DNA of 55,229 nt from Candidatus Omnitrophica bacterium CG08_land_8_20_14_0_20_41_16 (GTDB lineage: Bacteria > Omnitrophota > Gorgyraeia > Gygaellales > Profunditerraquicolaceae), in the NCBI GenBank assembly GCA_002774445.1, contig PEYI01000029.1:1-55229 (forward strand), read 5' to 3'. Under the pieces are notes generated by a model. The model ran no database searches, was not told where the DNA came from, and saw only the letters and a program-made list of their open reading frames with translations. Made by a program: the position numbers and the translations under genes. Every line of letters begins with the position of its first letter. Positions within the stretch are counted from its first letter, which is position 1. Shown here in pieces: positions 31,335 to 49,027 of the stretch.

Positions 31335-32315
31335 GTGAAGAAATTTTATATAATATTAGTTTTAAGCATATTATTATCCGGATGCGCTGCTTATAAGATA
31401 CAGCAAGGTAAATCTCCGCATGAGGGGGGTTTTGTTGTTTCAAGGTATAATAAAGTAATACCGGAATATAGTATCGGTGTTAATAATTCCTTCCCGGGCA
31501 AAGAGATCGCTGAGAAACGTTTTAAAAGACGCAGGTCTAAGGTTGAGTATTATTATAAAAAAATCGGCTTTATAGATAATCGTTTTAAGCAAACCTTTGT
31601 AGAACCTCCACTCTTATTCGTTCAGTTTGTTGCCGGTATATTCCGTATGCCTTTTATTGCCGTATCAGATTATAGGTATAATCATAATCCACAATATAAG
31701 GAGAAGATGGATAAGCTTGAGGATGAGCAATACTATGCCGAAAGGGCCCGAGTTAAAGGGTTAAAGGATAGATTAAGTGAATATATACAGGAAGATTTAG
31801 CCAAGGAATCTCCCGCTAAGGTTAACGAGCAGCCTAAACCAAAAGAAGAAGTTAAGATGGCAGAGCTTGCGCAGGAACCTGTCAAAGAAGTTCCTGCGGC
31901 AGCCCCGGTAGAGGTTAAGCCGGTTGAGACAATAAAGCCAGAGGCCCAAGAAAAGGCTATCGCTATTCAGGAAAGCTTGGAGGCAGTGCCTATAGTTGAA
32001 GAACCCAAATCTCAGGATATAAAATTACAGCCTTCTTTATTTAAGCCAACCGCTATAATTATTGCCAAACCGCAAAACGGCCCATCTCCCTTAAGGGTAA
32101 ATTTCTATGGCTACAAATCTTCATCGCCCAATGGGAAAATAGTCTCTTATTTCTGGGATTTCGGCGATGGAGATAAATCTAATAAGCCAAATCCTTTGAA
32201 TACCTACTGGAGCACTACCTACGGCGCAAGGGAATTTACCGTCACCCTTACTGTGACAGATAATAAAGGTATGGCCTCTTCCTCTAACGTCATTATTCAG
32301 GTAATAAATAAATAA
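31335..32315 (+). CDS. PKD-domain lipoprotein
   Basis: The 326-residue protein from GTG has lipobox LSGC (Cys17). A linker rich in Lys, Glu, Pro and Val (residues about 155-235) leads to a C-terminal PKD domain with the characteristic VSYFWDFGDGDKSNKPNPLN and FTVTLTVTDNKG. Such proteins sit on the outer membrane or surface with the PKD fold as a binding module. It appears leaderless (see the promoter). The gene converges with comM; an 18-bp AT-only palindrome (32310-32327) covers both stop codons. Confidence 0.8.
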   Translation: MKKFYIILVLSILLSGCAAYKIQQGKSPHEGGFVVSRYNKVIPEYSIGVNNSFPGKEIAEKRFKRRRSKVEYYYKKIGFIDNRFKQTFVEPPLLFVQFVAGIFRMPFIAVSDYRYNHNPQYKEKMDKLEDEQYYAERARVKGLKDRLSEYIQEDLAKESPAKVNEQPKPKEEVKMAELAQEPVKEVPAAAPVEVKPVETIKPEAQEKAIAIQESLEAVPIVEEPKSQDIKLQPSLFKPTAIIIAKPQNGPSPLRVNFYGYKSSSPNGKIVSYFWDFGDGDKSNKPNPLNTYWSTTYGAREFTVTLTVTDNKGMASSSNVIIQVINK

Positions 32316-32325
32316 TTTAAATTAT

Positions 32326-33876
32326 TTAGCGCCTATCTAAACTCCTATATTGCACTGCTTCCGAGATATGTTCTGCTAGTATCGTCTCACTCCCAGCCAA
32401 ATCTGCGATGGTCCGAGCGATCTTTAAAATTTTATCATAAGCCCTTGCCGATAAGCCCAATTCGGTCAAGGCAAGGCGCAACAAATCTTTTGCCTCGTTT
32501 CCTAAGGCGCAGTATTTCTTAATAAGTTTACCATTCATCTGGGCGTTGTAGAAGATACCCTTGTTTTTTCCGCCATAGGCGGATCTACCTTCGGCGGAAA
32601 AGCGTTCCCTTTGTACGGAGCGGGCTTTTTCGATCCTGGCTTTTATTGCTACGGACGCCTCTGCTTCCTTTATCTCAACCAACTCCTTATATTTAACCCT
32701 CGGCAATTCAATATGAATATCAATCCTGTCTAATAGCGGCCCGGAGATTTTTCCTATATAATTATCTATTTTAGTGGTATTGCAATGGCAGGCCTTCCGG
32801 GGGTCGCCAAGATATCCGCAGGGGCAGGGGTTGAAAGCTACAACAAGAATAAAAGAAGCAGGGAAGGTCAGGCTCTTTTTGATACGGCAGATGTTTATCT
32901 TTCCGTCTTCAAGCGGTTGACGCAGGGCCTCTAAGCTTGCGCGTTGAAATTCCGGGAGCTCGTCTAAAAATAATACGCCTTGGTGCGCAAGGCTGATTTC
33001 TCCGGGGATGGGCAATGGCCCGCCTCCGACTAAGGCCACACTTGATATGCTATGATGTGGAGCGCGGAATGGGCGGGTGGAGATTATACCATTTTGGTTA
33101 GTTAGGTTTCCGGTTACTGAATGTATCTTGGTTACTTCTAGCGCTTCTTCTAAAGTTAGTTCAGGCATAATGGTAGGGATTCTTTTGGCAAGCATGGTCT
33201 TGCCGCTCCCCGGAGGCCCGATCATGGCGATATTATGCCCTCCTGCCACAGCTACTTCAATTGCCCTCTTAGCCAGATATTGTCCTTTTACTTCTGAAAA
33301 GTCAATATTATAGTGGTTACTTTCTTGAAATAAGTTCCCTAAGTCTATTTTAAAAGGGGGCATTTGAGGATTATTCAGGAATTCTACAGTTTCTCTGAGG
33401 GTTTTAACCGGGAATACATTAACCCCGGAAACTATCGCTGCTTCTTTGGCGTTCTCCCAAGGGATAATAATATTTCGCCTGCCGCATTTAGCTATTTCCA
33501 TAGCTATAGGTAAAACTCCCCGCCCCGGCCGTAGTATGCCATCCAAGGAAAGCTCGCCTAAAATGAAATAATCGTTTAGCTTTAAGCCGTTAATTTGCTC
33601 GGTAGCGTAAAGTATGCCTAGGGCTATACCTAGGTCAAAGCAAGCGCCCTCTTTTTTTACCCCCGAAGGAGCTAAGCTTACGGTTATCCTTTCTGTCGGC
33701 CAGTTAAACCCTGAGTTCTTAATCGCGGATTTAACTCTTTCCCGGCTCTCTCTGATTGCTGAATCCGGTAAGCCGACCACGTTTATTGCCGGAAGCCCCC
33801 ATGAAACATCCACCTCTATCTCTATAGGATACGCCTCAATACCCTGCAAGCCAAAACTTAAGACTTTTGCGGTCAT
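32326..33876 (-). CDS. comM: ComM-like Mg-chelatase-family AAA ATPase
   Basis: The 516-residue protein is the only gene on the minus strand. The N-terminal Lon-protease-like domain has GLPDSAIRESRERVKSAIKN. The AAA part has GPPGSGKTMLAKRIPTIMP (Walker A) and VLFLDELPEF (Walker B), and a Mg-chelatase C-terminal domain ends with ADLAGSETILAEHISEAVQ. ComM is a hexameric branch-migration helicase in natural transformation. Residues about 435-448 (FSAEGRSAYGGKN) are an in-frame palindromic insertion shared with folC. A GGGAGGGG site precedes the ATG on the minus strand. Confidence 0.93.
   Translation of the reverse strand: MTAKVLSFGLQGIEAYPIEIEVDVSWGLPAINVVGLPDSAIRESRERVKSAIKNSGFNWPTERITVSLAPSGVKKEGACFDLGIALGILYATEQINGLKLNDYFILGELSLDGILRPGRGVLPIAMEIAKCGRRNIIIPWENAKEAAIVSGVNVFPVKTLRETVEFLNNPQMPPFKIDLGNLFQESNHYNIDFSEVKGQYLAKRAIEVAVAGGHNIAMIGPPGSGKTMLAKRIPTIMPELTLEEALEVTKIHSVTGNLTNQNGIISTRPFRAPHHSISSVALVGGGPLPIPGEISLAHQGVLFLDELPEFQRASLEALRQPLEDGKINICRIKKSLTFPASFILVVAFNPCPCGYLGDPRKACHCNTTKIDNYIGKISGPLLDRIDIHIELPRVKYKELVEIKEAEASVAIKARIEKARSVQRERFSAEGRSAYGGKNKGIFYNAQMNGKLIKKYCALGNEAKDLLRLALTELGLSARAYDKILKIARTIADLAGSETILAEHISEAVQYRSLDRR
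32566..32601 (-). repeat. In-frame palindromic insertion in comM (FSAxGxSAxG family)
   Basis: Arms TTTTCCGCC (32566-32574) and GGCGGAAAA (32593-32601) are perfect inverted repeats. Read on the minus strand, the element lines up with the folC copy in the same frame and the same coding orientation. Confidence 0.85.
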
Positions 33877-34143
33877 TTTTATCCCCTCCCAATGTTCCCG
33901 CCTCTTGCCCCGCAGAATGCGGGGCGGCGGGATTATACTTGCTTACTTCGCAAGCAAGTATTTCACTAAATCAAAACTTAAGGTGTTCAAGTTCGGGCAG
34001 ATAAGTTATGGAATCCCGCCAACGGCGGGACGACATAACTTATGCCCTCACTTAAATAGACGCAGGAGGAGGTAAAATCTAACTAATAAATTTTAGCTAT
34101 AATGCTTAGCTAGGTAAAATCCCTGCAGTAACCAAGAAAAGAC
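33877..34143. other. Divergent non-coding region with several palindromes
   Basis: This lies between comM (minus) and the coiled-coil gene (plus). It contains CCCCGC/GCGGGG at about 33909-33924, ATACTTGCTT/AAGCAAGTAT (33935-33961), and a compound element at about 33999-34042 with ATAAGTTATG/CATAACTTAT outside and CCCGCC/GGCGGG inside, related to repeat family A by its core and by a following CTCACTTAA. A minus-strand TATAAT (33937-33932) may be the comM -10 box but lacks a good -35. I see no gene. Confidence 0.55.
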
Positions 34144-34171
34144 TTGCAATTTAATCCAGGGATTATATAAT
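34144..34171 (+). promoter_or_regulatory. Promoter for the coiled-coil/PAP2-like pair, nearly leaderless
   Basis: TTGCAA (34144-34149), a 16-base spacer and TATAAT (34166-34171). The ATG at 34180 lies only 8 bases after the -10 box, so the transcript has at most a few leader bases and no ribosome site. Confidence 0.7.
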
Positions 34172-34179
34172 ATTTTCCT

Positions 34180-34719
34180 ATGAACAATAGATTTCTTAAG
34201 AACATACTAATTCTCCTCTTGGCTAGCGCTTTGGTCTTTGTGGTATTCAGATATATTTCTTATTTAAGAGAAAATATCAGAAGCCTTGAAGGCCAGAAAC
34301 AAAGCCTTGAATACCAGAAACAAAGCCTATCACAGGAGCTAGAGAAAGAAAAGAATACCGTAGAGCAGCTTAAGCTAAAAAATGACAGCCTGAAAGGTAA
34401 CTTAAAGGCTGCTCATAAAAGATTAAATAAGTCATTTTTAGCCTTAAGCCAATCAGAAAAGAGGGCTGAGGAGTTAAGTTCGCAAGCAGACATATTAAAA
34501 GCAGAAAACAACGCCCTTTCAGAAGAGAAGGCTAGGCTTGTAGGGGATAATGAAGCTTTTAAATCTAGGCTGACTTCTATCCCCGAACTCAAGAAAGCAA
34601 TCCAAGAGTTAAAAAGACAAGCGAGGTTGGAAGGTAATCGGGGTTTCTTGATTAAAAATGGTAAGAGCACATCTGTTGTTAAAGTCAAGATAGAGGTAAC
34701 TCCGGCTTCGGGTAAATAA
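34180..34719 (+). CDS. Membrane-anchored coiled-coil protein
   Basis: The 179-residue protein has one N-terminal membrane helix (residues 8-27, ILILLLASALVFVVF) and then a long heptad-type coiled coil, about residues 30-145, with the duplicated segment GQKQSLEYQKQSL. The C-terminal 35 residues are beta-like. I recognise no family. It is followed one base later by the PAP2-like gene, so both are made from one nearly leaderless message. The most likely role is structural, in the inner membrane and periplasm. Confidence 0.7.
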   Translation: MNNRFLKNILILLLASALVFVVFRYISYLRENIRSLEGQKQSLEYQKQSLSQELEKEKNTVEQLKLKNDSLKGNLKAAHKRLNKSFLALSQSEKRAEELSSQADILKAENNALSEEKARLVGDNEAFKSRLTSIPELKKAIQELKRQARLEGNRGFLIKNGKSTSVVKVKIEVTPASGK

Positions 34720-34720
34720 T

Positions 34721-35167
34721 ATGAAAGAGATATTTGTTCAGACGGTCCAGAATAAGATTTTTATGACTACGCTCTCGGCTTGGCTTATCGCCCAGATAAT
34801 AAAAGTAACCATAGGTATAATCCGCGAAAAAAGGTTTGATTTCCGCTGGTTTATCGGTACCGGTGGTATGCCTTCATCTCATGTCGCAGGCGCTTCCTGT
34901 TTGGCTGCGGCTATGGGTTTTGAATATGGTTTCAGCAGCCCTTATTTTGCCTTAGCCGCGGCATTTGCCATTGTGGTTATGTTTGATGCTCAGGGCGTGC
35001 GCCGGGCAACCGGAAAACAGGCAGGCATTTTAAATAAAATAACCGAAGATATTTATTGGAAAGGTAGAATTCCCGAAGGCCGGCTGCGTGAACTCATTGG
35101 GCATACCCCGGTTGAGGTTATCGCAGGTTTTATAGTTGGGGTTACCATAGCGGTATTAGCAAGATAA
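34721..35167 (+). CDS. Divergent PAP2-family membrane protein (DUF212)
   Basis: The 148-residue protein matches the DUF212 / divergent PAP2 family: FRWFIGTGGMPSSHVAGAS, VVMFDAQGVRRATGKQAGIL, LNKITED and RELIGHTPVEVIAGFIVG. The conserved Ser-His and His residues suggest phosphatase-like chemistry on a lipid phosphate, but no activity is proven for this family. It has about three to four hydrophobic helices. It lies directly downstream of the coiled-coil membrane protein. Its stop codon is next to a hairpin-array element. Confidence 0.85.
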   Translation: MKEIFVQTVQNKIFMTTLSAWLIAQIIKVTIGIIREKRFDFRWFIGTGGMPSSHVAGASCLAAAMGFEYGFSSPYFALAAAFAIVVMFDAQGVRRATGKQAGILNKITEDIYWKGRIPEGRLRELIGHTPVEVIAGFIVGVTIAVLAR

Positions 35168-35257
35168 CACCCGGCCTTATTTGAGAGGCCGGTGTGCGCT
35201 TCTGCGCAACACCCCGCACTTAAAGGAATTGCGCGGGTGTGCACTTATTGTGCTAGG
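35164..35257. repeat. Hairpin-array element, family B copy 2
   Basis: Pairs CGGCCT/AGGCCG (35171-35190), TGCGC/GCGCA (35194-35207), CCCGC/GCGGG and GCAC/GTGC follow one another. The motifs AATAACACCCGG-like start, TTCTGCGCAA and TGTGCACTTA(C/T)TGTGC are shared with 30293-30470. It ends a few bases before the ribosome site AGGAGG of the next gene. Confidence 0.75.
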
Positions 35258-35266
35258 AGGATTTAA

Positions 35267-36085
35267 GTGGTTAAGAAAACTTTAATTATATGGGGCGTTG
35301 TAATATTAACCCTGTTCGTTGCTTTAGCTTTTTTCTTTAAGAAGGATAGCGGTAATAGCGCCTCGCGAAAAGAAGGTAACCCAATTTCTGCTTCAGCGCT
35401 CTTAAATAAAGCAAGGGGCCTAGAGGCCAAGGGAGATTTAGTAAATCTTAAGGATGTATATCAGAAGTTAGTGAATGATTTCCCGAATTCTAATGAGGTA
35501 ATGAATTGGCAGAAAAAAGCCGAGGACATAAATATAAAGCTGCTATTTTCTCCGGCGATAACTGCTAAAAGCGCCCTTTATGAAATTAAACCCGGTGATA
35601 CCCTGGCTAAGATTGCCCGGGAATTTAAAACTACCGTGGATTTAATTAAGAAGAGTAATAATTTAAGCGATGATAGGATTGTTGGGGGTAGGAAGATAAA
35701 GGTTTGGACTGCGCCTTTTAGCATGCTGGTGGATAAATCCCAAAACATATTGATTCTTAAAAGCGATGAAGAGATTATAAGGACTTATATTGTTTCAACG
35801 GGAAAGAATAACTCTACTCCCATAGGTAATTTTAAGATTATCTCTAAGTTGGTCAATCCTGCCTGGTTTAAGTCCGGTACGGTTGTTCCCGCGGGAAGCC
35901 CGGAAAATATTCTGGGGACGCGTTGGATGGGAATTGATTTTCCCGGTTACGGCCTGCACGGAACAACCGATCCCAAGAGCCTTGGTAAACAAGTTACTCA
36001 AGGATGCGTGCGCTTGAGCAATTCTGATGTTGAGGAGCTCTATACTATTGTCCCCATTGGCACAGAAGTAGTTATTGTCGACTAA
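35267..36085 (+). CDS. LysM / L,D-transpeptidase (YkuD) with TPR-like linker
   Basis: The 272-residue protein has an N-terminal membrane anchor (residues 5-24), a short TPR-like helical part (about 43-90), a LysM domain at about 104-147 (YEIKPGDTLAKIAREF) and a YkuD domain at about 153-272. Catalytic residues are His231 (YGLHGTTD) and Cys247 (TQGCVRLSNSD). Such enzymes make 3-3 cross-links or attach proteins to peptidoglycan. Start is GTG with a good AGGAGG site. It stands alone between two repeat elements. Confidence 0.9.
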   Translation: MVKKTLIIWGVVILTLFVALAFFFKKDSGNSASRKEGNPISASALLNKARGLEAKGDLVNLKDVYQKLVNDFPNSNEVMNWQKKAEDINIKLLFSPAITAKSALYEIKPGDTLAKIAREFKTTVDLIKKSNNLSDDRIVGGRKIKVWTAPFSMLVDKSQNILILKSDEEIIRTYIVSTGKNNSTPIGNFKIISKLVNPAWFKSGTVVPAGSPENILGTRWMGIDFPGYGLHGTTDPKSLGKQVTQGCVRLSNSDVEELYTIVPIGTEVVIVD

Positions 36086-36147
36086 GTGAAGCCACAACCC
36101 CCCCATCACTTTCAATATAGCATAGGCTAAATACGAAAGTGATGGGG

Positions 36148-36209
36148 GATTAATTCGCGCAAATAACTTACGCTGCACTTCGTGCTGCCGTAAGTTATGC
36201 GCTCATTAA
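36148..36209. repeat. Palindromic repeat family A, copy 2
   Basis: ATAACTTACG (36163-36172) pairs with CGTAAGTTAT (36189-36198). Its first 25 bases are identical to 8185-8209, and its right end GCGCTCATTAA leads directly into accA. The loop (CTGCACTTCGTGCTGC) differs from copy 1, as expected for a palindrome family with variable loops. Confidence 0.85.
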
Positions 36210-36210
36210 A

Positions 36211-37158
36211 ATGGCCAGACTTGATTTTGAAAAACCCATTGTTGAGCTTGAGAAGAAAATTCAAGAACTCAAGCATTTTATTTCAGATAAGAAGATCGAT
36301 CTTTCTTCCGAGGTTAAAAAGCTGGAAGATAAGCTTGAGGACTTAAAGAAAGACACCTACACTAATCTTACCCCTTGGCAGATGGTTCAACTTGCCCGGC
36401 ATCCTCAAAGGCCATACACATTAGATTACATAAATATTTTGATGACAGATTTTATGGAACTCCACGGAGATAGGCTTTTCTCCGATGATAAGGCTATTGT
36501 TTCAGGGTTAGCAAGGTTAGATAAGCAGAAGGTTGTGGTTATTGGGCATCAAAAAGGCCGGGATACAAAAGAAAATCTTAAGTGTAATTTCGGCTGCGCT
36601 CATCCGGAGGGTTATCGTAAGGCCTTAAGGATGATGCAGCTGGCCGAAGAATTTAATCTCCCGGTTATAATTTTTATTGATACACCCGGGGCTTATCCGG
36701 GGATAGGAGCGGAAGAGCGCGGGCAGTCTCAGGCAATCGCTACCAATTTAAGAGAGATGGTTTCTATAGCTACTCCGATAATCTCTATAGTCATTGGCGA
36801 GGGCGGATCAGGGGGGGCATTGGGGATAGGGGTTGCGGACCGAGTTTATGTATTAGAAAATTCGTATTATTCAGTTATATCTCCTGAAGGTTGCGCCGCT
36901 ATATTATGGAAAGATGGATCAAAGGCTCCTGAGGCAGCGGCAGCTTTGAAACTAACCGGGGAAGATCTTTTAAGGCTTAAGGTTATTGATGCGGTTATCC
37001 CCGAGCCCTTAGGCGGGGCGCATCGCAATCCTGAAAAGACAGCGCAGAATATAAAAGAAGTTTTGGTTAAAGAGATAAAAGAGCTAAAAAATTTTAAGAA
37101 AGAAGACCTCCTTAAGGCTAGGTATAATAAATTTCGCGGTATGGGAGTTGTGGCATGA
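36211..37158 (+). CDS. accA: Acetyl-CoA carboxylase carboxyltransferase subunit alpha
   Basis: The 315-residue protein has the standard AccA length. N-terminal helices (LEKKIQELKHFI) are followed by the crotonase-like core with GCAHPEGYRKALRMMQLAEE, IIFIDTPGAYPGIGAEERGQ and IGEGGSGGALGIGVADRVYVL. With AccD it transfers carboxylate from biotin to acetyl-CoA, giving malonyl-CoA. Its position beside a PadR gene and a polyketide-type cluster suggests it could serve extender supply, but it may be the only AccA of the cell. It overlaps the next gene by four bases (ATGA). Confidence 0.96.
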   Translation: MARLDFEKPIVELEKKIQELKHFISDKKIDLSSEVKKLEDKLEDLKKDTYTNLTPWQMVQLARHPQRPYTLDYINILMTDFMELHGDRLFSDDKAIVSGLARLDKQKVVVIGHQKGRDTKENLKCNFGCAHPEGYRKALRMMQLAEEFNLPVIIFIDTPGAYPGIGAEERGQSQAIATNLREMVSIATPIISIVIGEGGSGGALGIGVADRVYVLENSYYSVISPEGCAAILWKDGSKAPEAAAALKLTGEDLLRLKVIDAVIPEPLGGAHRNPEKTAQNIKEVLVKEIKELKNFKKEDLLKARYNKFRGMGVVA

Positions 37159-37670
37159 TTGAACAAGAGTTATTACTATTGGGGCTTTTACGCGAAGGCC
37201 CTAAGCATGGCTATGAGATAAAAATTAAAGTTAAGCAGATCCTTTTTTTGTTTGCCGGGATTGAGCTTAAATCCGTATACTATCCCTTAAAAGTATTGGA
37301 ACAAAAAGGCTTGATAGCCAAAAGAATAGCTAAGCTTGGCAGAAGGCCACAGCGCATTGTTTATACCTTGACCGTAAAGGGTAGGAGCCGTTTTGACGAT
37401 CTATTAAGTAAGAGCATTCTACAGCTTAAGCGTCCGCAGTTTAGCCTGGACCTAAGCCTATATTTCATGCATTATTTAAAACCTTCCTCTGCCCGGCGCC
37501 GGGTTCGCGCCAGGCTGCGTATTTTGAATAAGATAGCGTTTGGTTTAACGCAGATGTCTAAGTCTAAGGCAGGTAAGAAACCATTTTCTTTAGCCCGGAT
37601 TCTTGAGCATAATCTTAAAATGCTTCAGGCCGAATCCGATTTCCTCTCTAATTTAATTAAAACCCTATAG
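37155..37670 (+). CDS. PadR-family transcriptional regulator
   Basis: The 171-residue protein has a PadR-type winged helix (LLLGLLREGPKHGYEIKIKV, VYYPLKVLEQKGLI, RIVYTLTVKGRSRF) and a C-terminal helical dimerisation part as in Vir/PadR-s1 proteins. It starts in the accA stop (ATGA), so it is co-translated with it. Immediately downstream lie a strong promoter and an 18-bp palindrome, making it the obvious candidate regulator of the polyketide-type cluster. Its ligand is unknown. Confidence 0.85.
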   Translation: MIEQELLLLGLLREGPKHGYEIKIKVKQILFLFAGIELKSVYYPLKVLEQKGLIAKRIAKLGRRPQRIVYTLTVKGRSRFDDLLSKSILQLKRPQFSLDLSLYFMHYLKPSSARRRVRARLRILNKIAFGLTQMSKSKAGKKPFSLARILEHNLKMLQAESDFLSNLIKTL

Positions 37671-37712
37671 AGAACAGTGTATTGTTTGCAATTTCCCATT
37701 GTATTTTTTCTC

Positions 37713-37740
37713 TTGACAAAGGTTGAACTATTTTTATAAT
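37713..37740 (+). promoter_or_regulatory. Strong promoter in front of the polyketide-type gene cluster
   Basis: TTGACA (37713-37718), a 16-base spacer and TATAAT (37735-37740): consensus at both boxes. The expected start point is near 37747, just before the palindrome at 37755-37772. Confidence 0.85.
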
Positions 37741-37754
37741 ATAATTAAATTTAA

Positions 37755-37772
37755 ATAGTAAAATTTTACTAT
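37755..37772. promoter_or_regulatory. 18-bp perfect palindrome, candidate operator
   Basis: ATAGTAAAATTTTACTAT is perfectly symmetrical. It covers about +8 to +25 of the predicted transcript and ends three bases before the first start codon, where a ribosome site would be expected and is absent. The PadR gene immediately upstream makes it a plausible operator; a role as an RNA structure is the alternative. Confidence 0.6.
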
Positions 37773-37775
37773 ATC

Positions 37776-38051
37776 ATGATTATGAATTGGGACTCTGCTA
37801 CAGAAACTAAATTCCGTTTATTTATCTCCAAGATACCGGTTTTCCACCGCCATATTACTGAAGAAGCCGTGGTTAAGAAAGCTGCGGAAAATGCCGGGGC
37901 AAGAGGTTCGGTCCTTGTTGAGGAGCAGGACGTGCTATGCGCATTTTTTTCCGATGTGCCTTCCCCGTTTTACAGTATGATGTGCAGGCTTCTTGAGCAG
38001 ACCGGGTTTGATTATAAGAAATACGGTTTTCCCAAGAATGTAAATAAATGA
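37776..38051 (+). CDS. Small protein with PCP_red-like (protochlorophyllide-reductase-type) domain
   Basis: A 91-residue protein. The N-terminal half (MNWDSATETKFRLFISKIPV then RHITEEAVVKKAAENAGA) resembles the PCP_red domain found at the end of BchB/ChlB and in small free proteins of anaerobes. The C-terminal half is its own (FSDVPSPFYSMM, Cys-containing). It starts the putative cluster operon under the 37713 promoter, without a ribosome site, and overlaps the next gene by four bases (ATGA). The role is unknown; a redox or tetrapyrrole link is a guess from the domain name only. Confidence 0.5.
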   Translation: MIMNWDSATETKFRLFISKIPVFHRHITEEAVVKKAAENAGARGSVLVEEQDVLCAFFSDVPSPFYSMMCRLLEQTGFDYKKYGFPKNVNK

Positions 38052-39055
38052 AAATCGCTGTCATTGGCGCAGGCGCAATAGGCGCCTTAATTGCAGGCTA
38101 CCTTAAGCTAAAGGGCGAAGATGTATCATTAGTCGGCCGGCCTGAGGCAGTTTGTATTATTAATAAAGAAGGACTTAAGATATCGGGGGTAAGGGGGAAT
38201 TTTAAGGTTGATATATTCGCCCATGAAGTCCTAACTTATAAACCTGAGCTCCTGATTTTAGCGACCAAGACACAGGATATTGAGTCTGCGCTAAAGGATA
38301 ACTTAAGCCTGATTAAAGATTCCATTATTGTAACTACGCAAAATGGAGTTCAGGCGGATAATATCGTATCCCGCTATTTACCGCAGGGGAATATTATTTC
38401 GAGCATCGTGATGTTTGGCTCTACTTATTTTTCACCGGGAAAGGTGGTGCATAATTTTGAGGGGAGTTGGGTCTTAGGGGATATTTTCAAGAAAATATCC
38501 GATTCTAGAATACTCTCCGTAAGTTTAACCCTGGATAAAGCATTTACTACAATTATCAGCGAAGATATCTTGGGGATGAAGTATTTAAAGATTTTTGTTA
38601 ATGCTAACAATTGCATTCCTGCGATATTGGGCTTAAGTATGCAGGAGGCTTTTTCTGATCCTGAGGTTAGCCGCGTAAGCATTGGCATCTGGAAAGAGGG
38701 TTTTGATTTACTGTCTCAAGCAGGGATAAAATTGGTTTCTTTACCGGGTTTTCCCGTAGAAAATATAACCAGGCTTATTTCTATCCCTTCAAACGAAGCC
38801 GCGAAGGCATTCTCGGGAATAATGACAAAATTGAGCAAGGATCCTTTATACGGCTCAATCTTGCAGAGTATTAAGCGTGGCCGGAGTTCGGAAATAGATT
38901 ATATTAACGGCGAATTCGTAAGTTTGGCAGAAAGGCATAGATTAACCGCGCCGCTGAATAATAAACTAGTAAGCATGGTGCATGAAGTTGAAGAAACAAA
39001 GAAGTTTTTTAGCAAAGAGGGGCTTTTTAATAGCGTGAAATTATTATTAAACTAA
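38048..39055 (+). CDS. PanE/ApbA-family 2-ketoacid (ketopantoate-type) reductase
   Basis: The 335-residue protein has the N-terminal NAD(P) site IAVIGAGAIGALIAGYLKLKG and the family motifs LILATKTQDIE and TTQNGVQADNIV. The C-terminal domain has GRSSEIDYINGEFVSLAERH, which is diagnostic for PanE-like enzymes. Ketopantoate reductase makes pantoate for CoA, but PanE relatives reduce other 2-keto acids. Here it lies in the polyketide-type cluster, so it may act on a pathway intermediate or support CoA/ACP cofactor supply. No panB is nearby. Confidence 0.85.
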   Translation: MKIAVIGAGAIGALIAGYLKLKGEDVSLVGRPEAVCIINKEGLKISGVRGNFKVDIFAHEVLTYKPELLILATKTQDIESALKDNLSLIKDSIIVTTQNGVQADNIVSRYLPQGNIISSIVMFGSTYFSPGKVVHNFEGSWVLGDIFKKISDSRILSVSLTLDKAFTTIISEDILGMKYLKIFVNANNCIPAILGLSMQEAFSDPEVSRVSIGIWKEGFDLLSQAGIKLVSLPGFPVENITRLISIPSNEAAKAFSGIMTKLSKDPLYGSILQSIKRGRSSEIDYINGEFVSLAERHRLTAPLNNKLVSMVHEVEETKKFFSKEGLFNSVKLLLN

Positions 39056-39056
39056 G

Positions 39057-39698
39057 ATGAGCGAAATAAACCCCGTTAGAAATACCGAAAAGACAGGAAG
39101 AGGAAATGAAATTTCTAACGGGGTAAATACTCCTTTCCCAAGATTAAAACTAACCGTAACCGGAGTTTTCGGCGAATGTTACCATGGATATAAAATCGGC
39201 GATGAGATAATCTTGGAGGATTTTACGCATGCGCCAAAACATTTTTGTTTAGGCCTTGTCCACGCGCTGTTTCCGGTAATTTATGCCTTAAGTTTTGGGG
39301 CAAAATTCGGCTTTCGCGATAACCAACGTTCGCTTTTAATCACTTGCCCTGACGGAGGTAAATTAGAGTTTAAGGCAGAAATCTTGGATAAAAATGGTAT
39401 TGTAGAGAACCTTTCCAGGGACCCCAGCCATAAATTTAATCCTAAAAAAATGGTTATTGAAGTAGTCCAGTCTAAAGGCAAATGTACATTTGGCTATAAG
39501 GTGGGGGATAAATGGGAAACCACCGGGTTAAAATGTATTCCCGGGTTTTGCGGAGCGGCATTTCATACCGCATTTCCGGCTTTATTCGCCTTGAATTTTG
39601 GGGCTAACTTCTTTTTTATGGATAGCCCTAATTCCATAGATACGGTCACTTGCCCTGACGGCGGGAATATTATATTTAAGATTACGAGAGTGGAATGA
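39057..39698 (+). CDS. Duplicated TIGR04076-like protein with N-terminal palindromic-repeat peptide
   Basis: The 213-residue protein contains two copies of a domain of about 80 residues, at about residues 33-110 and 127-212. Each has a Gly/Cys start (GECYHGYKIGDEI; GKCTFGYKVGDKW), an HALFPVIYAL / HTAFPALFAL core and a closing TCPDGG. This is the pattern of the TIGR04076 family, of unknown function, with conserved Cys residues suited to metal or redox chemistry. Residues 4-23 derive from the NPVRN...ISNGVN palindromic element. It lies one base after the PanE-like gene and one before the ketosynthase gene. Confidence 0.75.
   Translation: MSEINPVRNTEKTGRGNEISNGVNTPFPRLKLTVTGVFGECYHGYKIGDEIILEDFTHAPKHFCLGLVHALFPVIYALSFGAKFGFRDNQRSLLITCPDGGKLEFKAEILDKNGIVENLSRDPSHKFNPKKMVIEVVQSKGKCTFGYKVGDKWETTGLKCIPGFCGAAFHTAFPALFALNFGANFFFMDSPNSIDTVTCPDGGNIIFKITRVE
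39070..39124 (+). repeat. 55-bp in-frame palindromic element (NPVRN...ISNGVN family), copy 1
   Basis: Arms ACCCCGTTAGAAAT (39070-39083) and ATTTCTAACGGGGT (39111-39124) are perfect inverted 14-mers around a 27-base loop. They are read as NPVRN and ISNGV near the start of the host protein. Copy 2 at 46860-46914 has identical arms, loop length and frame. Confidence 0.95.
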
Positions 39699-39699
39699 T

Positions 39700-40959
39700 A
39701 TGAAAAGAAGAGTGGTTATCACCGGCATAGGGACTATTTCGCCTAACGGTATAGGTAAAGAAGCTGTTTGGCAGGGGATGTCATCCGGAAAATCGGGGGT
39801 AAAATTAGTCGATGGCTTTGATGTTTCAGTCTTTAATACTAAAATTGCCGCCGAAGTACGTGATTTTAATCCTTTTAAATTAGGGTTAAATCACGAAGAA
39901 GCCATGCGCATGGATAGATATGTGCAGTTTGCTGTAGTCGCGGGGAATATGGCGATTAAAGACAGTAAATTAAATTTTGTAAAAGAGGATCCGCAACATA
40001 TTGGGGTTTCTCTGGCTAATGCCATCTGTGGCACAAAATATATGGAAGAGGAATTTGCCCTCGTAACTGATAGCGGCAAAAAGCCAATTGATCCGTCTTT
40101 AGTCAGGCCGGATCTTTATGATGCGGCAATGTTTAATACGCCTTCAATTGAGTTATCCGCAAAATACGGATTAAAAGGGGTATGCAATACACTTTCCACC
40201 GGCTGTACTGCCGGGACAGATTCTCTCGGGTTTGGCTTAGAGACAATTCAGGACGGCGAACAGGATATTATGATTTGCGGCGCGGCAGAAGCGCCGCTGA
40301 CTCCGATTACTTTCGGCGCATTTGATGTAATTAATGTTTTGTCTGTGCATAACGATGAGCCGCAAAAAGCTTCGCGTCCGTTTGACAATAAACGCGACGG
40401 GTTTGTTTTGGCCGAGGGCGCAGGAATCCTGGTTTTAGAGGAATTAAATCATGCTTTAAAGCGCAATGCCAGAATTTATTGCGAAGTCCTTGGTTTCGGC
40501 ACAAGTTGCAATGCATATCACATGACAGATTTACCTTCAGACGGTAGGGCGATGGAGACTTGTATTTCGCTTGCCTTAAAAGATTCCGGGATAAGCCCTA
40601 AAGAGATAGATTATATTAATGCCCATGGATCATCCACGCGCATGAACGATATCTTCGAGACCAGCGCATATAAGGCGATTTTTGGGGATTACGCCTATAA
40701 GTTGCCTATCAGCTCTTTTAAATCTATGATTGGCCATCCTTTGGCTGCGGCAAATGCCATTGAGCTGACTGTAGTTGCGATGATCTTTGACAAAAACATT
40801 CTTCCTCCCACCATTAATCAGGAAGAAAAAGACCCGCAGTGTGATTTATATTATATCCCCAACGAAGCAATACAAAAAAAAGTAAACACGATTATTAAGA
40901 CCAGCAGCGGTTTTTCAGGGATTCATTCATCTTTGGTTTTAAGGAGATATGATGGATAA
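39700..40959 (+). CDS. Type II polyketide ketosynthase alpha (KS-alpha)
   Basis: The 419-residue protein is a beta-ketoacyl synthase of the type II polyketide kind. The active-site stretch NTLSTGCTAGTDSLGFGLE (Cys169) is closer to actinobacterial KS-alpha (STGCTSGLDSVG) than to FabF. His309 is in DYINAHGSSTRMND, Lys341 and His346 in FKSMIGHPLAAANA. It should condense malonyl-ACP units as a heterodimer with the next gene, which overlaps it by 11 bases. The ACP, cyclases and ketoreductase needed for an aromatic polyketide are downstream. A modified FabF for an unusual fatty acid is the alternative. Confidence 0.9.
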   Translation: MKRRVVITGIGTISPNGIGKEAVWQGMSSGKSGVKLVDGFDVSVFNTKIAAEVRDFNPFKLGLNHEEAMRMDRYVQFAVVAGNMAIKDSKLNFVKEDPQHIGVSLANAICGTKYMEEEFALVTDSGKKPIDPSLVRPDLYDAAMFNTPSIELSAKYGLKGVCNTLSTGCTAGTDSLGFGLETIQDGEQDIMICGAAEAPLTPITFGAFDVINVLSVHNDEPQKASRPFDNKRDGFVLAEGAGILVLEELNHALKRNARIYCEVLGFGTSCNAYHMTDLPSDGRAMETCISLALKDSGISPKEIDYINAHGSSTRMNDIFETSAYKAIFGDYAYKLPISSFKSMIGHPLAAANAIELTVVAMIFDKNILPPTINQEEKDPQCDLYYIPNEAIQKKVNTIIKTSSGFSGIHSSLVLRRYDG

Positions 40960-42181
40960 GATTGCGGTTACGGGTATAGGTGTCGTTGCGCCTTCCGGAA
41001 TTGGCAAGCGTCAGTTCTGGGCGAATATTAAAAGCGGCCGCTCTTTTATTAAAGAAATCACCCGTTTTGATTCCTCTAAATACCCATCGCGTATCGCCGG
41101 CCAGATTGATGACTTAGAAAAATATAGCCACATATCAGAGAGGCTCTTAAAGAAGATTGATGCCTTTTCGCATATGGCGCTGATTGCTTCGGAAATGGCC
41201 TTGCAGGATGCTGGTATTGATATTAAGAATGAGGATCCCAGCCTGATCGGGATTTTCTTAGGCAATGCCATCGGCGGTTGGCTTTATGCCGAGACAGAAT
41301 TAAGGGACCTCTATTTAGAAGGCCGTGAAGGAGTTTCCCCTTATATGGCTTCCGCGTGGTTTCCCGCGGCCCCGCAAGGGCAGGTTTCTATTTATTACGG
41401 GATAAAAGGATTTTCTAAAACTGTAGTCGCGGACAGGGCCAGTTCTTTAATGGCTTTAGGCTATGCCCGGAAAGTTTTAGCTAAAAATAAATTAAATATG
41501 ATTTTAGCCGGAGGCATGGAAGCGCCGGTTACGCCCTACGCTTTATTATGCTGTAATACTTATGGCGCGCTTTCCAAGAATAATAATGACCCGGAACATG
41601 CTTACCGGCCATTTGATAAAAAGCGCGACGGTTTTGTTTTAGGGGAGGGGGCAGGTATCGTGGTTATGGAGAGTGTTAACCGGGCTAAGCAAAGAGGAGC
41701 TAATATTTTAGGCTATATCAGCGGTTACGCCACTACCTGCGACGCGGTGGATAGAATAAATTGTGCTCCGGATGGTAAAGAACTGGCCTGGACAATAAAT
41801 AACGCGTTCTCTGAAGCCAAAGTAAACCCGGGGGAGATTGATTATATCAGTTTAGATGGTTTAGCTATTGATTTATGGGATAATTCTGAAATTAACGCCC
41901 TGAAATTAGTTTTCGGGCATAGGTTAAAAGATATTCCTTTAAGCTGCCCGAAATCAATGTTTGGAAATTTGTTGGGGGCATCAGGGGTAGTGGATATGAT
42001 TACTACTATTTTAGCTATGGAGCATAGCCTTGTTCCGATTACCTTAAACTTGGACGCGCCCAGTGTAAATGGGCTAAATTATGTTACCAAAGAAGCTAAA
42101 GAATACAAAATAGATAAAGCCTTAATTATTTCCCGCGGTCGTGGCGGGATTAACGCGGTACTGGTGGTTGAAAAAGCTTAA
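40949..42181 (+). CDS. Chain-length-factor-like ketosynthase beta (KS-beta/CLF)
   Basis: The 410-residue protein is a KS-fold partner of the preceding gene, but all three catalytic residues are replaced: the nucleophile Cys by Arg163 (VVADRASSLMALGYARK), the first His by Asp303 (YISLDGLAID), the second by Asn340 (MFGNLLGASG). Lys335 remains. Known CLFs have Gln at the Cys position (AEQAGGLDALGHARR-like), so the sequence aligns well yet differs there. Chain-length factors set the length of the polyketide. The start overlaps KS-alpha by 11 bases, as in classic type II pairs, supporting stoichiometric synthesis. Confidence 0.88.
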   Translation: MMDKIAVTGIGVVAPSGIGKRQFWANIKSGRSFIKEITRFDSSKYPSRIAGQIDDLEKYSHISERLLKKIDAFSHMALIASEMALQDAGIDIKNEDPSLIGIFLGNAIGGWLYAETELRDLYLEGREGVSPYMASAWFPAAPQGQVSIYYGIKGFSKTVVADRASSLMALGYARKVLAKNKLNMILAGGMEAPVTPYALLCCNTYGALSKNNNDPEHAYRPFDKKRDGFVLGEGAGIVVMESVNRAKQRGANILGYISGYATTCDAVDRINCAPDGKELAWTINNAFSEAKVNPGEIDYISLDGLAIDLWDNSEINALKLVFGHRLKDIPLSCPKSMFGNLLGASGVVDMITTILAMEHSLVPITLNLDAPSVNGLNYVTKEAKEYKIDKALIISRGRGGINAVLVVEKA

Positions 42182-42191
42182 GGAGGATTTA

Positions 42192-43652
42192 ATGAAGATT
42201 TTATTTGTTATGCCAAAAGTCGGTGCTTGGGCAACGCATGGGATACATCGTTCTCCAAATCAGTTATATGCGCATTGGGCAGCCTATATTCGGGAGAGAG
42301 GTTATACAGATGTGGCGGTAATTGACGGAAAAGCTGATCAGATACCTATGGAGCAACTGGTTGAACAGGTGAAGCTTAAAGCACCTGATATTGTGGTAAT
42401 GGGTGAGCAGTTACACGGTTATGGCGGATACGGGGTTTTACGACATTTTAAAGATGCTGCCATTGGGATTAAAAAAGCGCTGCCTAAGACAAAAATAATT
42501 CTCGGTGGGTTATGGTATTCGGCAATGCCTGTGCCTACATTAGAGGAGAATCCTGCAGTTGACTTTGTGGTTATGGGTGAAGAGGAATCTTTTGGAGATT
42601 TAATCGAAGCAATAGATAAAAACAAGCCCCTTAAAGATGTGGCTGGCGTTACTTCCCGTGTCGATGGGCAGATTGTTATGGGGCCGCATAAGCCGCTGAT
42701 GCAAGATTTAGATAAACTCCCTTTACCGGCTTATGATTTGTTCCCGATGGATAAATATGTAGGTCATACTTATTGGAAACCATTTGTAGATATGGTTACC
42801 TCCAGAGGTTGCCCTTCGGCGTGCACCTTTTGTTATGAGTGGGACCAGTTTGACCCACGCTCTCCTTCAGATTTCTTAAAATGGCGGGCTAAATCTCCGG
42901 AAAGAGTTATGGAAGAGTTGAATCTTTTGCATAAAAAATACGGGGTTAAAGTCGTGGTTATTCAGGATGACAATTTTAATGTCGACCCTAAAAGAGTGCA
43001 GAAGTTCTGCAAACTTAAAAAGGCGTCGAATAATCCGATTAAATGGGTATCTTTAGGACGCGCGATTGACTGGGTTAATTGTGAATCAATCCTGCCGCTG
43101 ATGAAGGAGAATGGTTTATTCATGGGTGTTTTTGGCATTGAGGTTACAACTCAGTCAGAGCTTAAGAAAATCGCTAAAGGCATCACTATTGATCAGATTA
43201 AGAGAACCATAGAGATCTTGCGCAAAAATGATATCGCGATTGTCGCGGATATTATGATGGGTTTTGATTATGACACTGAAGAGATTATCAAGCAGCGTTT
43301 TGAGTTTACTGATCAGGTTGATCCGGATATTTTGTGGGTGGGCTATGTTACTCCTGCCCCGAATTCGCCGATGTGGAGAATTGCTTTAAAGAAAAACTGG
43401 ATTGATCCTAAGAAGGTAGATTTTAGCCAATGGGATTTTCTCCACCCGGTAATCCCTACGGATCATCTTACTACGGAAGATCTCGGTCGGCTTGGCTCAT
43501 GGTGTATGCGCGAATTTTTCTCTAAACCCGGGAGAATCAACCGGATTATGGAGAGCAACTTTGACCCGTTAGCCAAACTTTGCTTTAAGGATGTTATGGA
43601 TGGTATCAATAAATGGGAAGCAGCCGCAACTAAAGGTGAAGTACAAATCTAG
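42192..43652 (+). CDS. B12-binding-type radical SAM enzyme (BchE-like class)
   Basis: The 486-residue protein from ATG 42192 has an ideal AGGAGG site. Residues 1-170 form a cobalamin-binding-type Rossmann domain (MKILFVMPKVGAWATHG, KIILGGLWYSAMP, FVVMGEEESFGDLIEAI). The radical SAM core has CX3CX2C Cys207, Cys211, Cys214 (RGCPSACTFCYEW). Members of this class perform methylations, ring contractions or the BchE oxidative cyclisation. The neighbours suggest tailoring of the polyketide. The substrate is not predictable. The TAG stop lies in a GGGACTGTCCC repeat. Confidence 0.88.
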   Translation: MKILFVMPKVGAWATHGIHRSPNQLYAHWAAYIRERGYTDVAVIDGKADQIPMEQLVEQVKLKAPDIVVMGEQLHGYGGYGVLRHFKDAAIGIKKALPKTKIILGGLWYSAMPVPTLEENPAVDFVVMGEEESFGDLIEAIDKNKPLKDVAGVTSRVDGQIVMGPHKPLMQDLDKLPLPAYDLFPMDKYVGHTYWKPFVDMVTSRGCPSACTFCYEWDQFDPRSPSDFLKWRAKSPERVMEELNLLHKKYGVKVVVIQDDNFNVDPKRVQKFCKLKKASNNPIKWVSLGRAIDWVNCESILPLMKENGLFMGVFGIEVTTQSELKKIAKGITIDQIKRTIEILRKNDIAIVADIMMGFDYDTEEIIKQRFEFTDQVDPDILWVGYVTPAPNSPMWRIALKKNWIDPKKVDFSQWDFLHPVIPTDHLTTEDLGRLGSWCMREFFSKPGRINRIMESNFDPLAKLCFKDVMDGINKWEAAATKGEVQI

Positions 43653-43679
43653 GGACTGTCCCCGGAGGGGACTGTCCCT
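43651..43679. repeat. Tandem GGGACTGTCCC elements at the radical SAM stop codon
   Basis: AGGGACTGTCCCC (43651-43663) and GGGGACTGTCCCT (43667-43679), separated by three bases, pair apart from the central base. The first overlaps the stop codon. A further copy is at 48237-48249. Confidence 0.8.
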
Positions 43680-43696
43680 AAAATAGGGAGGTTGCT

Positions 43697-43933
43697 ATGG
43701 AGGTAAAGACTAAGATCAAAGAAGTGTTAGTCAATTTATTAAAGGTAAAACTTGATGAATTAAAGGATGAGTTGTCTTTGCAGGATTCAATCGGCGTAGA
43801 TTCAACCGAAATGGTAGAGTTGGTTATCGCGCTTGAGAAGGCTTTTAACGTTAAGCTTTTCCCGAAAGAGGTTACCAAATTTTCTGCTATTAACGATATT
43901 GAGAAAGTTATTAATTCTAAATCCGGAAAATAA
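43697..43933 (+). CDS. Acyl carrier protein
   Basis: A 78-residue four-helix ACP. The phosphopantetheine site is Ser in IGVDSTEMVELVIALEKAF (usual DSL, here DST), with the typical acidic helix 2. It is preceded by a GGGAGG site and overlaps the next start (TAATG). Within the cluster it is the natural carrier for the KS-alpha/CLF pair. No phosphopantetheinyl transferase or malonyl transferase is in the window, so these may be shared with fatty-acid synthesis. Confidence 0.92.
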   Translation: MEVKTKIKEVLVNLLKVKLDELKDELSLQDSIGVDSTEMVELVIALEKAFNVKLFPKEVTKFSAINDIEKVINSKSGK

Positions 43934-44736
43934 TGAGAATTATTGATTTAAGTTTGCCAATTGACGAGAAGGCCTTTGAGGTGCATAAGGTTGATATCGA
44001 GCGCGTAACTCACAAGGCCGGTATTGATAAATTTAATCGGATAATAATGGGTAAGACGTTATCAGGTAAGTTAAGCTACCTTTTGGGTAAACGCATACTT
44101 AGGCCTTGTGATGTCCCGGACGGTGAATTCTTATCGCTGGAAATAGTGCATTCGCCTGTCCATGTCGGAACCCACCTGGATTATTCTTTTCATTACGGTT
44201 CTAAGTCAGAAGGCAGGGCTGCAAAAACCGCCGATGAAATCCCGCTTGAATATTGCTATCAGTATGGAGTGCGCTTGGATTTAAGGCATAAAAAACCAGC
44301 AGAGGCGATAACTGCCGCAGATATGGAAGCGGCATTAAAAAGGATTAATTATAATCTGAAGCCGCTGGATATTGTATTACTCTGGACAGGCGCGGATAAA
44401 TTTTACGGGAGGCCCGAATATTTTACTGATTATCCGGGCGTAGATACTTCGGCGATAGATTACCTTTTAGATTGCGGGATCAAGGTTTTCGGCACCGATA
44501 CCATGGGTATAGATCGGCCGTATAAATTTATGCTCAAAGAATTCTTAGATTCCAAAGATCCTCGTAAATTCTATCCAGCGCATTTTTACGGCAGAAAGCG
44601 TGAGTTTATTCACATCGAGAGGCTTGGCAGGTTGGAAAATTTGCCTGCTGCAGCCGGCTTTAAAATTATTTGTTTTCCGGTACGCATTAGGCAGACCGGC
44701 GCCGCCTGGTCGAGAGTGGTTGCTCTTTTAGATTAA
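43933..44736 (+). CDS. Cyclase-family (PF04199, kynurenine-formamidase-like) metal-dependent protein
   Basis: The 267-residue protein has the metal motif HxGTHxDxxxH (His77, His81, Asp83, His87; PVHVGTHLDYSFH). PF04199 includes kynurenine formamidases and the putative cyclases of several polyketide clusters. It overlaps the ACP stop (TAATG). A ring-closing or hydrolytic role on the polyketide is inferred from context. The last 16 bases of the gene reappear inverted at 44817-44832. Confidence 0.85.
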   Translation: MRIIDLSLPIDEKAFEVHKVDIERVTHKAGIDKFNRIIMGKTLSGKLSYLLGKRILRPCDVPDGEFLSLEIVHSPVHVGTHLDYSFHYGSKSEGRAAKTADEIPLEYCYQYGVRLDLRHKKPAEAITAADMEAALKRINYNLKPLDIVLLWTGADKFYGRPEYFTDYPGVDTSAIDYLLDCGIKVFGTDTMGIDRPYKFMLKEFLDSKDPRKFYPAHFYGRKREFIHIERLGRLENLPAAAGFKIICFPVRIRQTGAAWSRVVALLD

Positions 44737-44832
44737 CAGTTTAAGCGCTTCCTGTCACGGGGCGCTTCTTGCGCTCACGCGCTGCGAAGCATCTCCGTGC
44801 CACCCGCTTTAAGATTTTAATCTAAAAGAGCA
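44721..44832. repeat. Inverted copy of the cyclase gene end flanking a palindromic spacer
   Basis: TGCTCTTTTAGATTAA (44721-44736), the last codons and stop of the cyclase gene, recurs exactly inverted at 44817-44832. The 80 bases between contain inner pairs such as TTAAGCG/CGCTTTAA and CACGG/CCGTG. The whole can fold into one long hairpin ending just before the next ribosome site. Confidence 0.85.
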
Positions 44833-44852
44833 TAATATTTAAGGAGGGTTAG

Positions 44853-45293
44853 ATGGGACATACTTGCAATGCAATAGTAATAAACGCGCCTTATGATCTG
44901 GTTTTTGATATTTCTAATGATATACCGCGCTGGACGGAATTGTTCGGCGGTGAATATAAGAAGGCAGAGATTATAAGTAAGGAAGGCGACAAAATAACCT
45001 TTCGCCTTACTGACGACGAGGATAAATCTTGGGTATCCTGGCGGCTGCTTTTTAAGGATAAGTATTTTACTTATTCCGAAAGGCATGAGCCAAAGTTTCC
45101 GTTTAAGTATATGAAAATTATTTGGCTCTATACGCCTAAGCCTGAAGGCATTGAGCTGACCTGGATTCAGCATTTTGCAATGGACGATAAAGCTAAATTT
45201 AGCGATGAACAGGTTGAGGGTTTCATCAATAAACACTCTAAAGAAAATTTACTGGTTTTTAAGCAATTAATTGAGAAACAAGTTAAATTATAA
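44853..45293 (+). CDS. SRPBCC/START-type polyketide aromatase-cyclase-like protein
   Basis: The 146-residue protein has the hydrophobic-cavity SRPBCC fold with typical ends: INAPYDLVFDISNDIPRWTE at the N-terminus and the long C-terminal helix HSKENLLVFKQLIEKQ. The middle strand WLYTPKPEGIELTWIQHFAM resembles TcmN/WhiE aromatase-cyclases. These direct first-ring cyclisation and aromatisation of ACP-bound polyketides. A GGAGGG site precedes the ATG. A coenzyme-Q-binding or lipid-binding role is possible, but the type II cluster makes the cyclase reading much more likely. Confidence 0.85.
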   Translation: MGHTCNAIVINAPYDLVFDISNDIPRWTELFGGEYKKAEIISKEGDKITFRLTDDEDKSWVSWRLLFKDKYFTYSERHEPKFPFKYMKIIWLYTPKPEGIELTWIQHFAMDDKAKFSDEQVEGFINKHSKENLLVFKQLIEKQVKL

Positions 45294-45310
45294 AATAGGG
45301 GAGGTTTATA

Positions 45311-46087
45311 ATGAGCGAAAATTTAAAAGGTAAAGTGGCGATCGTTACTGGTGCCAGCCGCGGAATTGGTAAGGCCTTAGCCTGCACTGCGGCAAGCTTA
45401 GGGATTAATTTAACCATTGCCGCTCGCCAAGAAGGGCCCTTGAAGGAGACCGCAGATGAAATCGCCAAGAAATACAAGGTTGAGGTACTCGCGGTTCCTT
45501 GCGATGTTACAAAATTAGAGGATTTGGAAAATCTGGTGAATAAGACTAAGGGAAAGTTCGGCAAGATTGACATTTTGATTAATAACGCCGGAGTATCCTC
45601 GCAATATCCTTTTCAAGAACAGCCGATGGAGGATTTTGAGAGGTTGGCGTATACGAATTACTTAGGTTACGTGCGTTTAATCCGCCTGGTAATCAATGAT
45701 ATGATTAAAAATAAGTCGGGAGCGATTATCAATATGGTTTCAGGGTCAACGCTTTGCGATCCGCTGCCGAGAAACTTTATTGTTTATAGTTCGCTTAAAG
45801 TAGGCTTACGCGCCTTTTCCAAAGGCCTGTTCTGGGAATTGCGTGACCATGGGATTAAGGTTACCTCAATATTGCCCGGGGTAACCGATACGGACTTAAC
45901 CGGCAAATTAAAAGAGATAACCCAGGATACTTCGCGCCTGATGACTACCGAGGCAATTGAAAACGCGGTCAGATTTGCTTTAACCGTTCCGCAAAATGTC
46001 TGCCCTCTGGAGATCGCCGTGATTAACCAGCAGACGCCGTGGACTGCGCCGGTTATACCGTTTAAACAGCAGCACCCGGGGAGATAA
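45311..46087 (+). CDS. Short-chain dehydrogenase, probable polyketide ketoreductase
   Basis: The 258-residue classical SDR has NAD(P) motif TGASRGIGKA (residues 13-22), NNAG (91-94) and catalytic Ser146, Tyr159 and Lys163 (YSSLK). The TGxxxGIG and cofactor-loop residues (ARQEG) suggest NADPH. As in aromatic type II clusters it would reduce a keto group of the nascent chain. It follows the aromatase after 17 bases with a GGGGAGG site. It closes the recognisable cluster; a palindromic spacer and different genes come next. Confidence 0.9.
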   Translation: MSENLKGKVAIVTGASRGIGKALACTAASLGINLTIAARQEGPLKETADEIAKKYKVEVLAVPCDVTKLEDLENLVNKTKGKFGKIDILINNAGVSSQYPFQEQPMEDFERLAYTNYLGYVRLIRLVINDMIKNKSGAIINMVSGSTLCDPLPRNFIVYSSLKVGLRAFSKGLFWELRDHGIKVTSILPGVTDTDLTGKLKEITQDTSRLMTTEAIENAVRFALTVPQNVCPLEIAVINQQTPWTAPVIPFKQQHPGR

Positions 46088-48277: not shown

Positions 48278-49027
48278 ATGCAAATGGTTAAGGATGTGCA
48301 TTTAACAGGAAAAGATTTGACCCAGATGGTGCAGTTAAGGCCGGAAGACGTGGGAAAATATGCGATTGTGCCCGGGCCAAGAGATAGGCTTGACGTTTTA
48401 TTAAAGAAATTTGAGAATCCGGTGAAGAACTTTACCTTTATGGAATATTCTATGTATACCGGGACAGTGGAAGGAATAAAGGTAACTGCGATTAATGGTG
48501 GAAGATTTTCAACCGATACCTCAATTACTACTGAGGTTATGTGTAATGCGCAAATTCAGAATATTATTCGCGTAGGCACTTGTGGTTCGTTAGACGAAAA
48601 TATCAAAATTGGCGATTTGTTTGTGGTTGATGAGGTTATCCGTGGCGACGGAGTTACGCCGTATTATGTAGATAAGAATTTTAAGACCATAGCTGATAAA
48701 AAAATCGCTGATACTTTATATGAAGTTGCTAAAGGCATGGGTTTAACCATTCATCGCGGGAAAGTCTGGACTACGGATGCGCTTTTACGCGAAACAAGAG
48801 AGATTGTAGAAGCCAAGCGTAAAGAAGGTGCCAAGGCAGTAGATATGGTTTCTGCGACCATGTTAACTATTGCGCAGACTTACAATATCAAGGCCGGCTC
48901 AATCTTAGCAGTAAGCGATAATGTTATTACCGGCGAGATGGGCTTTATGAATCCATTATATTATATGGCAGAGTCAAATATTTTAAAAATAGCTTTAGGA
49001 ACAGTGAAAAAGTTGGAAGGAAAATGA
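48278..49027 (+). CDS. Nucleoside phosphorylase, probably for 5'-deoxyadenosine or methylthioadenosine
   Basis: The 249-residue protein is of the PNP/UDP phosphorylase family: IVPGPRDRLDVLLKKF (phosphate loop), IIRVGTCGSL (Arg and Thr of the phosphate/ribose site), GDGVTPYYV and the Asp214 in VSDNVITGE. The ribose-binding Glu that normally follows the M-E motif is Val191 (VDMVSATM). It is the first of four genes linked by ATGA overlaps: isomerase, aldolase, aldehyde dehydrogenase. That context favours phosphorolysis of a 5'-deoxynucleoside for the DHAP shunt rather than general purine salvage. A GGAG site lies 6 bases before the ATG. Confidence 0.82.
   Translation: MQMVKDVHLTGKDLTQMVQLRPEDVGKYAIVPGPRDRLDVLLKKFENPVKNFTFMEYSMYTGTVEGIKVTAINGGRFSTDTSITTEVMCNAQIQNIIRVGTCGSLDENIKIGDLFVVDEVIRGDGVTPYYVDKNFKTIADKKIADTLYEVAKGMGLTIHRGKVWTTDALLRETREIVEAKRKEGAKAVDMVSATMLTIAQTYNIKAGSILAVSDNVITGEMGFMNPLYYMAESNILKIALGTVKKLEGK

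Follow-up and report, generated by a model that had tools for sequence, protein, structure and literature searches.

A conserved palindrome at the promoter of a ketosynthase cluster as the probable operator of a neighbouring PadR protein in Omnitrophota

Promoter and palindrome between padR and the cluster

In an Omnitrophota genome, a padR gene and a biosynthetic cluster are separated by a region in which a promoter is followed by a perfect palindrome, which raises the question of which factor recognizes this site and how it acts on transcription. The window analyzed here, a stretch of 55,229 nucleotides, carries the -35 hexamer TTGACA (37713–37718) and the -10 hexamer TATAAT (37735–37740) on the forward strand. 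With their 16-nt spacer they constitute the sole 12/12 match to a σ70 promoter (37713–37740) in a sequence scan of positions 32000–45000, confirming the consensus promoter proposed in an earlier sequence-only reading. The perfect 18-bp palindrome ATAGTAAAATTTTACTAT noted there is indeed present at 37755–37772, without strand assignment, and is the only copy both in the window and in the whole genome. Its core, TAGT-N8-ACTA, reads TAGT-AAAATTTT-ACTA when written out. Taking the start site about 7 nt past the -10 hexamer, this putative operator extends from approximately +9 to +26, a recalculation of the +8 to +25 given previously. An extra, imperfect unit (TAATTAAATTTAA; 37742–37754, forward strand) precedes the main unit by 14 bp. 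A second candidate site in the same genome (C83, two mismatches) was rejected as a chance match because it falls in a pilT-like gene, at the 3′ end.

An 18-bp palindrome by itself proves nothing, since dinucleotide-shuffled windows contained a mean of 0.45 palindromes of at least 18 bp; its significance derives from conservation among relatives. The palindrome had also been reported to occupy the ribosome-site position of the first gene. This holds locally with the annotated start at 37776. It does not hold as a conserved feature, because comparison of homologues places the conserved start probably at the third codon (37782) and because the ribosome-site region of the relatives comes after the palindrome.

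Elsewhere in the window, a 20-bp perfect palindrome (TAAATAATTTAAATTATTTA, 32309–32328) between convergent genes possibly serves as a bidirectional terminator. A dispersed, MITE/REP-like palindromic repeat (GGATTAATTCGCGCAAATAACTTACG...CGTAAGTTATGCGCTCATT) with about ten copies in the genome is found at 36147–36212 and 8184–8251, and an element similar to it lies upstream of the 91-aa gene at locus L038.

Conservation of the palindrome and its association with padR

Allowing one mismatch at most, the palindrome was detected in 67 of 117 relatives, in most cases as a single copy per genome. Almost all relatives with a name are Candidatus Omnitrophota MAGs. A reversed control pattern matched in 5 of the 117 and a shorter control palindrome in 2. 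As the latter comprises 16 bp and the operator 18 bp, it is likelier to occur by chance, and the comparison is therefore conservative. Across the class (Ca. Omnitrophota) the palindrome is present in 100 of 286 genomes, a count made on incomplete MAGs that are related and thus not independent. The first relatives examined displayed the same 18 bp directly past the -10 hexamer of the same operon, even where this operon had left padR. Alignment of 76 promoters revealed an information content of about 1.2–1.9 bits per base over the inner 16 bp, while the flanks were near zero except for the extra partial copy. This copy, at an offset of -14, scored a mean of 7.9 matches out of 13 in the 76 promoters as compared to 4.85 (sd 0.19) in shuffled flanks. 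The inner pairs never change on both sides, save for one T-T at pair 4–15, and the outermost pair varies symmetrically (A-T to C-G). Although shuffled windows yield 0.45 such palindromes on average, near-invariance over the class and a fixed position at promoters rule out a chance palindrome in AT-rich DNA, to which we assign practically no probability.

A PadR profile search identified padR orthologues in 129 of the 286 genomes. Leaving out five weak or truncated padR hits, both elements occur together in 94 genomes, the palindrome alone in 6, padR alone in 30 and neither in 156. Among genomes devoid of the cluster headed by orf91, the corresponding numbers are 12, 4, 4 and 154. Counted by hand at the level of families, they are 19, 4, 3 and 27 (p=9e-8), with the reservations that Fisher p-values overstate independence because the genomes are related, and that each of the four palindrome-only families rests on a single 1-mismatch hit. 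The three padR-only families (f2, f34 and f37) each include genomes with a site of up to two mismatches directly behind padR, and a diverged site was seen at that position in most of the sampled genomes that have padR alone. No site was found behind padR in the stretch examined in G070, G268 and G281, all of which possess padR. The six genomes with a palindrome and without padR consist of two fragmented assemblies (G312 and G318) and four single 1-mismatch hits (G202, G205, G245 and G276). The latter are probably chance matches, and no cluster gene was present in the stretch around them. Loci L152 and L153 (G205 and G276), which belong to different families, share a 1-mismatch palindrome together with the same layout of flanking ORFs, suggestive of horizontal transfer or contamination.

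The sequence-only reading had proposed a search for the palindrome in front of padR-adjacent operons of relatives, and the outcome was strongly positive. Of 98 distinct padR loci, 52 have a site with up to two mismatches no more than 200 bp downstream of the gene, and in many families the distance is 41–244 bp. In several genomes padR and the operator are kilobases apart or on separate contigs. This distance in some genomes, together with the transcription of padR with accA, would be compatible with another, unlinked transcription factor binding the palindrome and padR being a passenger of the accA neighbourhood. Yet the operator tracks padR even in genomes lacking the ketosynthase cluster and stays behind padR in divergent families, and its 4-8-4 dyad geometry is of the PadR type. 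Moreover, neither operator nor cluster was detected in G020, in which padR is reduced to a fragment of 52–54 residues. We therefore regard an unlinked factor as unlikely and consider that the palindrome very probably serves a dedicated local repressor as its operator, namely the PadR protein encoded directly upstream in the accA-padR unit.

The PadR protein and the position of its putative operator

The padR gene (37155–37670, forward strand; PF03551, E=2.7e-12) overlaps by 4 nt with accA for the acetyl-CoA carboxylase carboxyltransferase alpha subunit (36211–37158, forward strand; Pfam PF03255, E=2.7e-153), and the order accA-padR is kept across the family. Its product contains a winged helix-turn-helix domain (PF03551, 46.9 bits at a cutoff of 27) and a C-terminal helical domain. 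The structural model (pLDDT 85.7) shows helices at residues 100–107, 110–137 and 144–170 and, together with full-length hits to 8jxk, indicates a C-terminal helical dimerisation domain of the subfamily 1 type. Within the recognition helix S-I/V-Y-Y-P-L, residues S40, Y42, Y43 and L45 are invariant in 99 homologues, while whole-protein identity of these homologues to the PadR of the window drops to about 28–45%.

The best Foldseek matches of the model were 8jxk and 5x11, the complex of BsPadR with its operator. Among solved proteins, the Rv0047c-type PadR (8jxk) comes closest in both sequence and structure, with a full-length match at E=5.5e-17; as far as compared, neither accA nor an operator of this kind is linked to it. 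B. subtilis PadR (PDB 5x11-5x14) shares the full-length two-domain fold and an inverted repeat with an 8-bp centre. It represses its neighbouring operon, as would the protein described here. The two proteins are only about 24% identical, and their half-sites differ (ATGT in B. subtilis, TAGT here). B. subtilis PadR controls phenolic acid detoxification, whereas the promoter in the window precedes a biosynthetic cluster. LmrR and the PadR-s2 subfamily likewise combine a winged helix-turn-helix with an inverted-repeat operator, but proteins of the LmrR type are without the long C-terminal domain found here and act on a drug exporter. The known PadR motif consists of ATGT and ACAT separated by 8–10 bp (ATGT-N8-ACAT; PMC3506622). 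TAGT-N8-ACTA conforms to this arrangement of 4-bp half-sites; the half-sites themselves deviate from the canonical ones, only the GT...AC part being in agreement.

Further evidence came from promoter geometry. Of 76 homologous promoters, 73 have TTGAC ahead of the operator, and the -35 element starts mainly at -43, -32 or -18 relative to the operator start. Accordingly placed past the -10 hexamer (family of the window), over the start site (f49 and its kin) or around the -10 hexamer itself (f17 and f48), the operator always lies on or just past the -10 hexamer and overlaps the core promoter. A protein bound at any of these three placements would block RNA polymerase, and none of them is an activator position. 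Because the operator shifts its position yet always blocks the promoter, these data argue for repression and not for an RNA element. The latter would be a leader hairpin that masks the ribosome site or causes attenuation, and a 7-bp A/U-rich hairpin can in fact form over the palindrome in the leader. However, its fold z-score is only -1.5, changes of inner pairs are one-sided and lack compensation, and the palindromes of f17 and f48, which contain the -10 hexamer, are not transcribed as a whole. The promoter-position data thus largely refute an RNA element, which we consider extremely improbable. Slightly less remote, and still very unlikely, is activation or a dual role of PadR bound at this site, as in AphA, an activator (1yg2) that is also matched by the profile. 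A site on or downstream of the -10 hexamer is one where a bound protein normally blocks RNA polymerase, and the promoter is already near consensus. Adjacency, co-occurrence with padR orthologues and overlap with the core promoter all support the earlier suggestion that padR encodes the likely repressor.

Repression by PadR could proceed as follows. A PadR dimer would bind the dyad TAGT-AAAATTTT-ACTA, and the weaker unit 14 bp upstream may hold a second dimer. Bound PadR would cover +9 to +26 of the consensus σ70 promoter and block initiation of transcription or escape into the biosynthetic cluster at 37.8–55 kb. Ligand control, suggested earlier and expected from the behaviour of the PadR family, would mean that a small molecule releases PadR; the probable candidate is an acyl or aromatic compound arising in the pathway, as an intermediate or as its product.

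The operons behind the operator

The genes of the cluster given here with coordinates are encoded on the forward strand. The first one, orf91 (37776–38051), codes for a 91-aa protein with weak similarity to DUF2621/PCP_red. This family is highly conserved (37782–38039; W5, FHR, VPSPFY and GFDYKKYG) and has a probable paralogue in several families, which is included among distant orf91 hits. It is followed by genes for a ketopantoate-reductase-like (PanE/ApbA) protein (38048–39055), a doubled TIGR04076 family protein (39057–39698), a KSα-like ketosynthase with the Cys present (39700–40959), a second, CLF-like ketosynthase in which the catalytic Cys is replaced (VVADRASSL; 40949–42181) and a B12-binding radical SAM enzyme resembling BchE/HpnJ (42141–43652). 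Cyclase (PF04199), polyketide-cyclase-like and SDR genes (43933–46087) precede those for a nucleoside phosphorylase, an MtnA-like isomerase, a class II aldolase and an aldehyde dehydrogenase (48278–52435). After an acyltransferase gene, the start of an acyl-AMP ligase gene (55014–55229; tblastn with a homologue, 53%) is cut by the contig end. Located beside the radical SAM enzyme, the genes at 48278–52435 resemble a built-in, DHAP-shunt-like salvage of 5′-deoxyadenosine (5′-deoxyadenosine/MTA). In other families, PNP and IF2B genes accompany the cluster.

The combination of KSα and a CLF without catalytic Cys is that of type II PKS, whose KS-CLF clusters have been catalogued in 14 phyla including Ca. 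Omnitrophica (PMC10132072). The present cluster shares with them KSα, the second KS without catalytic Cys, cyclases and SDR; it differs by its additional B12-radical SAM and 5′-deoxynucleoside-salvage-like genes. An acyl carrier protein was not recognised among the scanned cluster proteins, which covered part of the small ORFs. The designation of the operon as polyketide-type is therefore borne out by the KSα/CLF-like pair, the cyclases and the SDR, although the product may instead be a lipid. Titles and abstracts searched yielded no prior description of Omnitrophota with PadR or polyketide, and within the literature searched a single paper naming Omnitrophota and PadR together deals with the lipocone superfamily, another subject.

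Across families, one of the transcription units behind the operator is the ketosynthase cluster, which in many cases begins with an acyl-AMP ligase and contains PNP and IF2B genes. In genomes without the cluster, the operator precedes an acyl-AMP ligase-MMPL-LolA-DUF1302 operon. Some genomes possess two sites, the second of which, in resolved cases (e.g. G046), precedes an acyl-AMP ligase. The idea of an operator specific to the ketosynthase cluster was rejected, as the site also heads acyl-AMP-ligase/MMPL/LolA/DUF1302 operons in genomes that lack a close KS2 homologue. The operons found behind the operator point to a regulon of acyl activation combined with export or elongation. The operons of an acyl-AMP ligase, MMPL exporter, LolA-like and DUF1302 protein under the operator (L145, L147-L150, L112 and L113) are probably lipid-exporting.

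As a tentative extension, one that we do not favour strongly, these elements might form a class-wide, almost frozen PadR regulon of the Omnitrophota with its own operator code, consisting of one dedicated site per genome, TAGT-N8-ACTA with a 14-bp repeat, which the invariant SIYYPL helix would recognise. Such a regulon might control an ancient acyl-AMP-ligase-led pathway for a lipid or polyketide central to the cells, with the accA-linked padR sensing malonyl/acyl status.

The operator offers inexpensive access to a conserved biosynthetic pathway in an uncultured class, because it flags the transcription units involved, and expressed PadR could serve as bait for the ligand. Furthermore, the site illustrates how a regulator and its operator can stay nearly unchanged while the placement of the operator relative to the promoter and the genes downstream shift.
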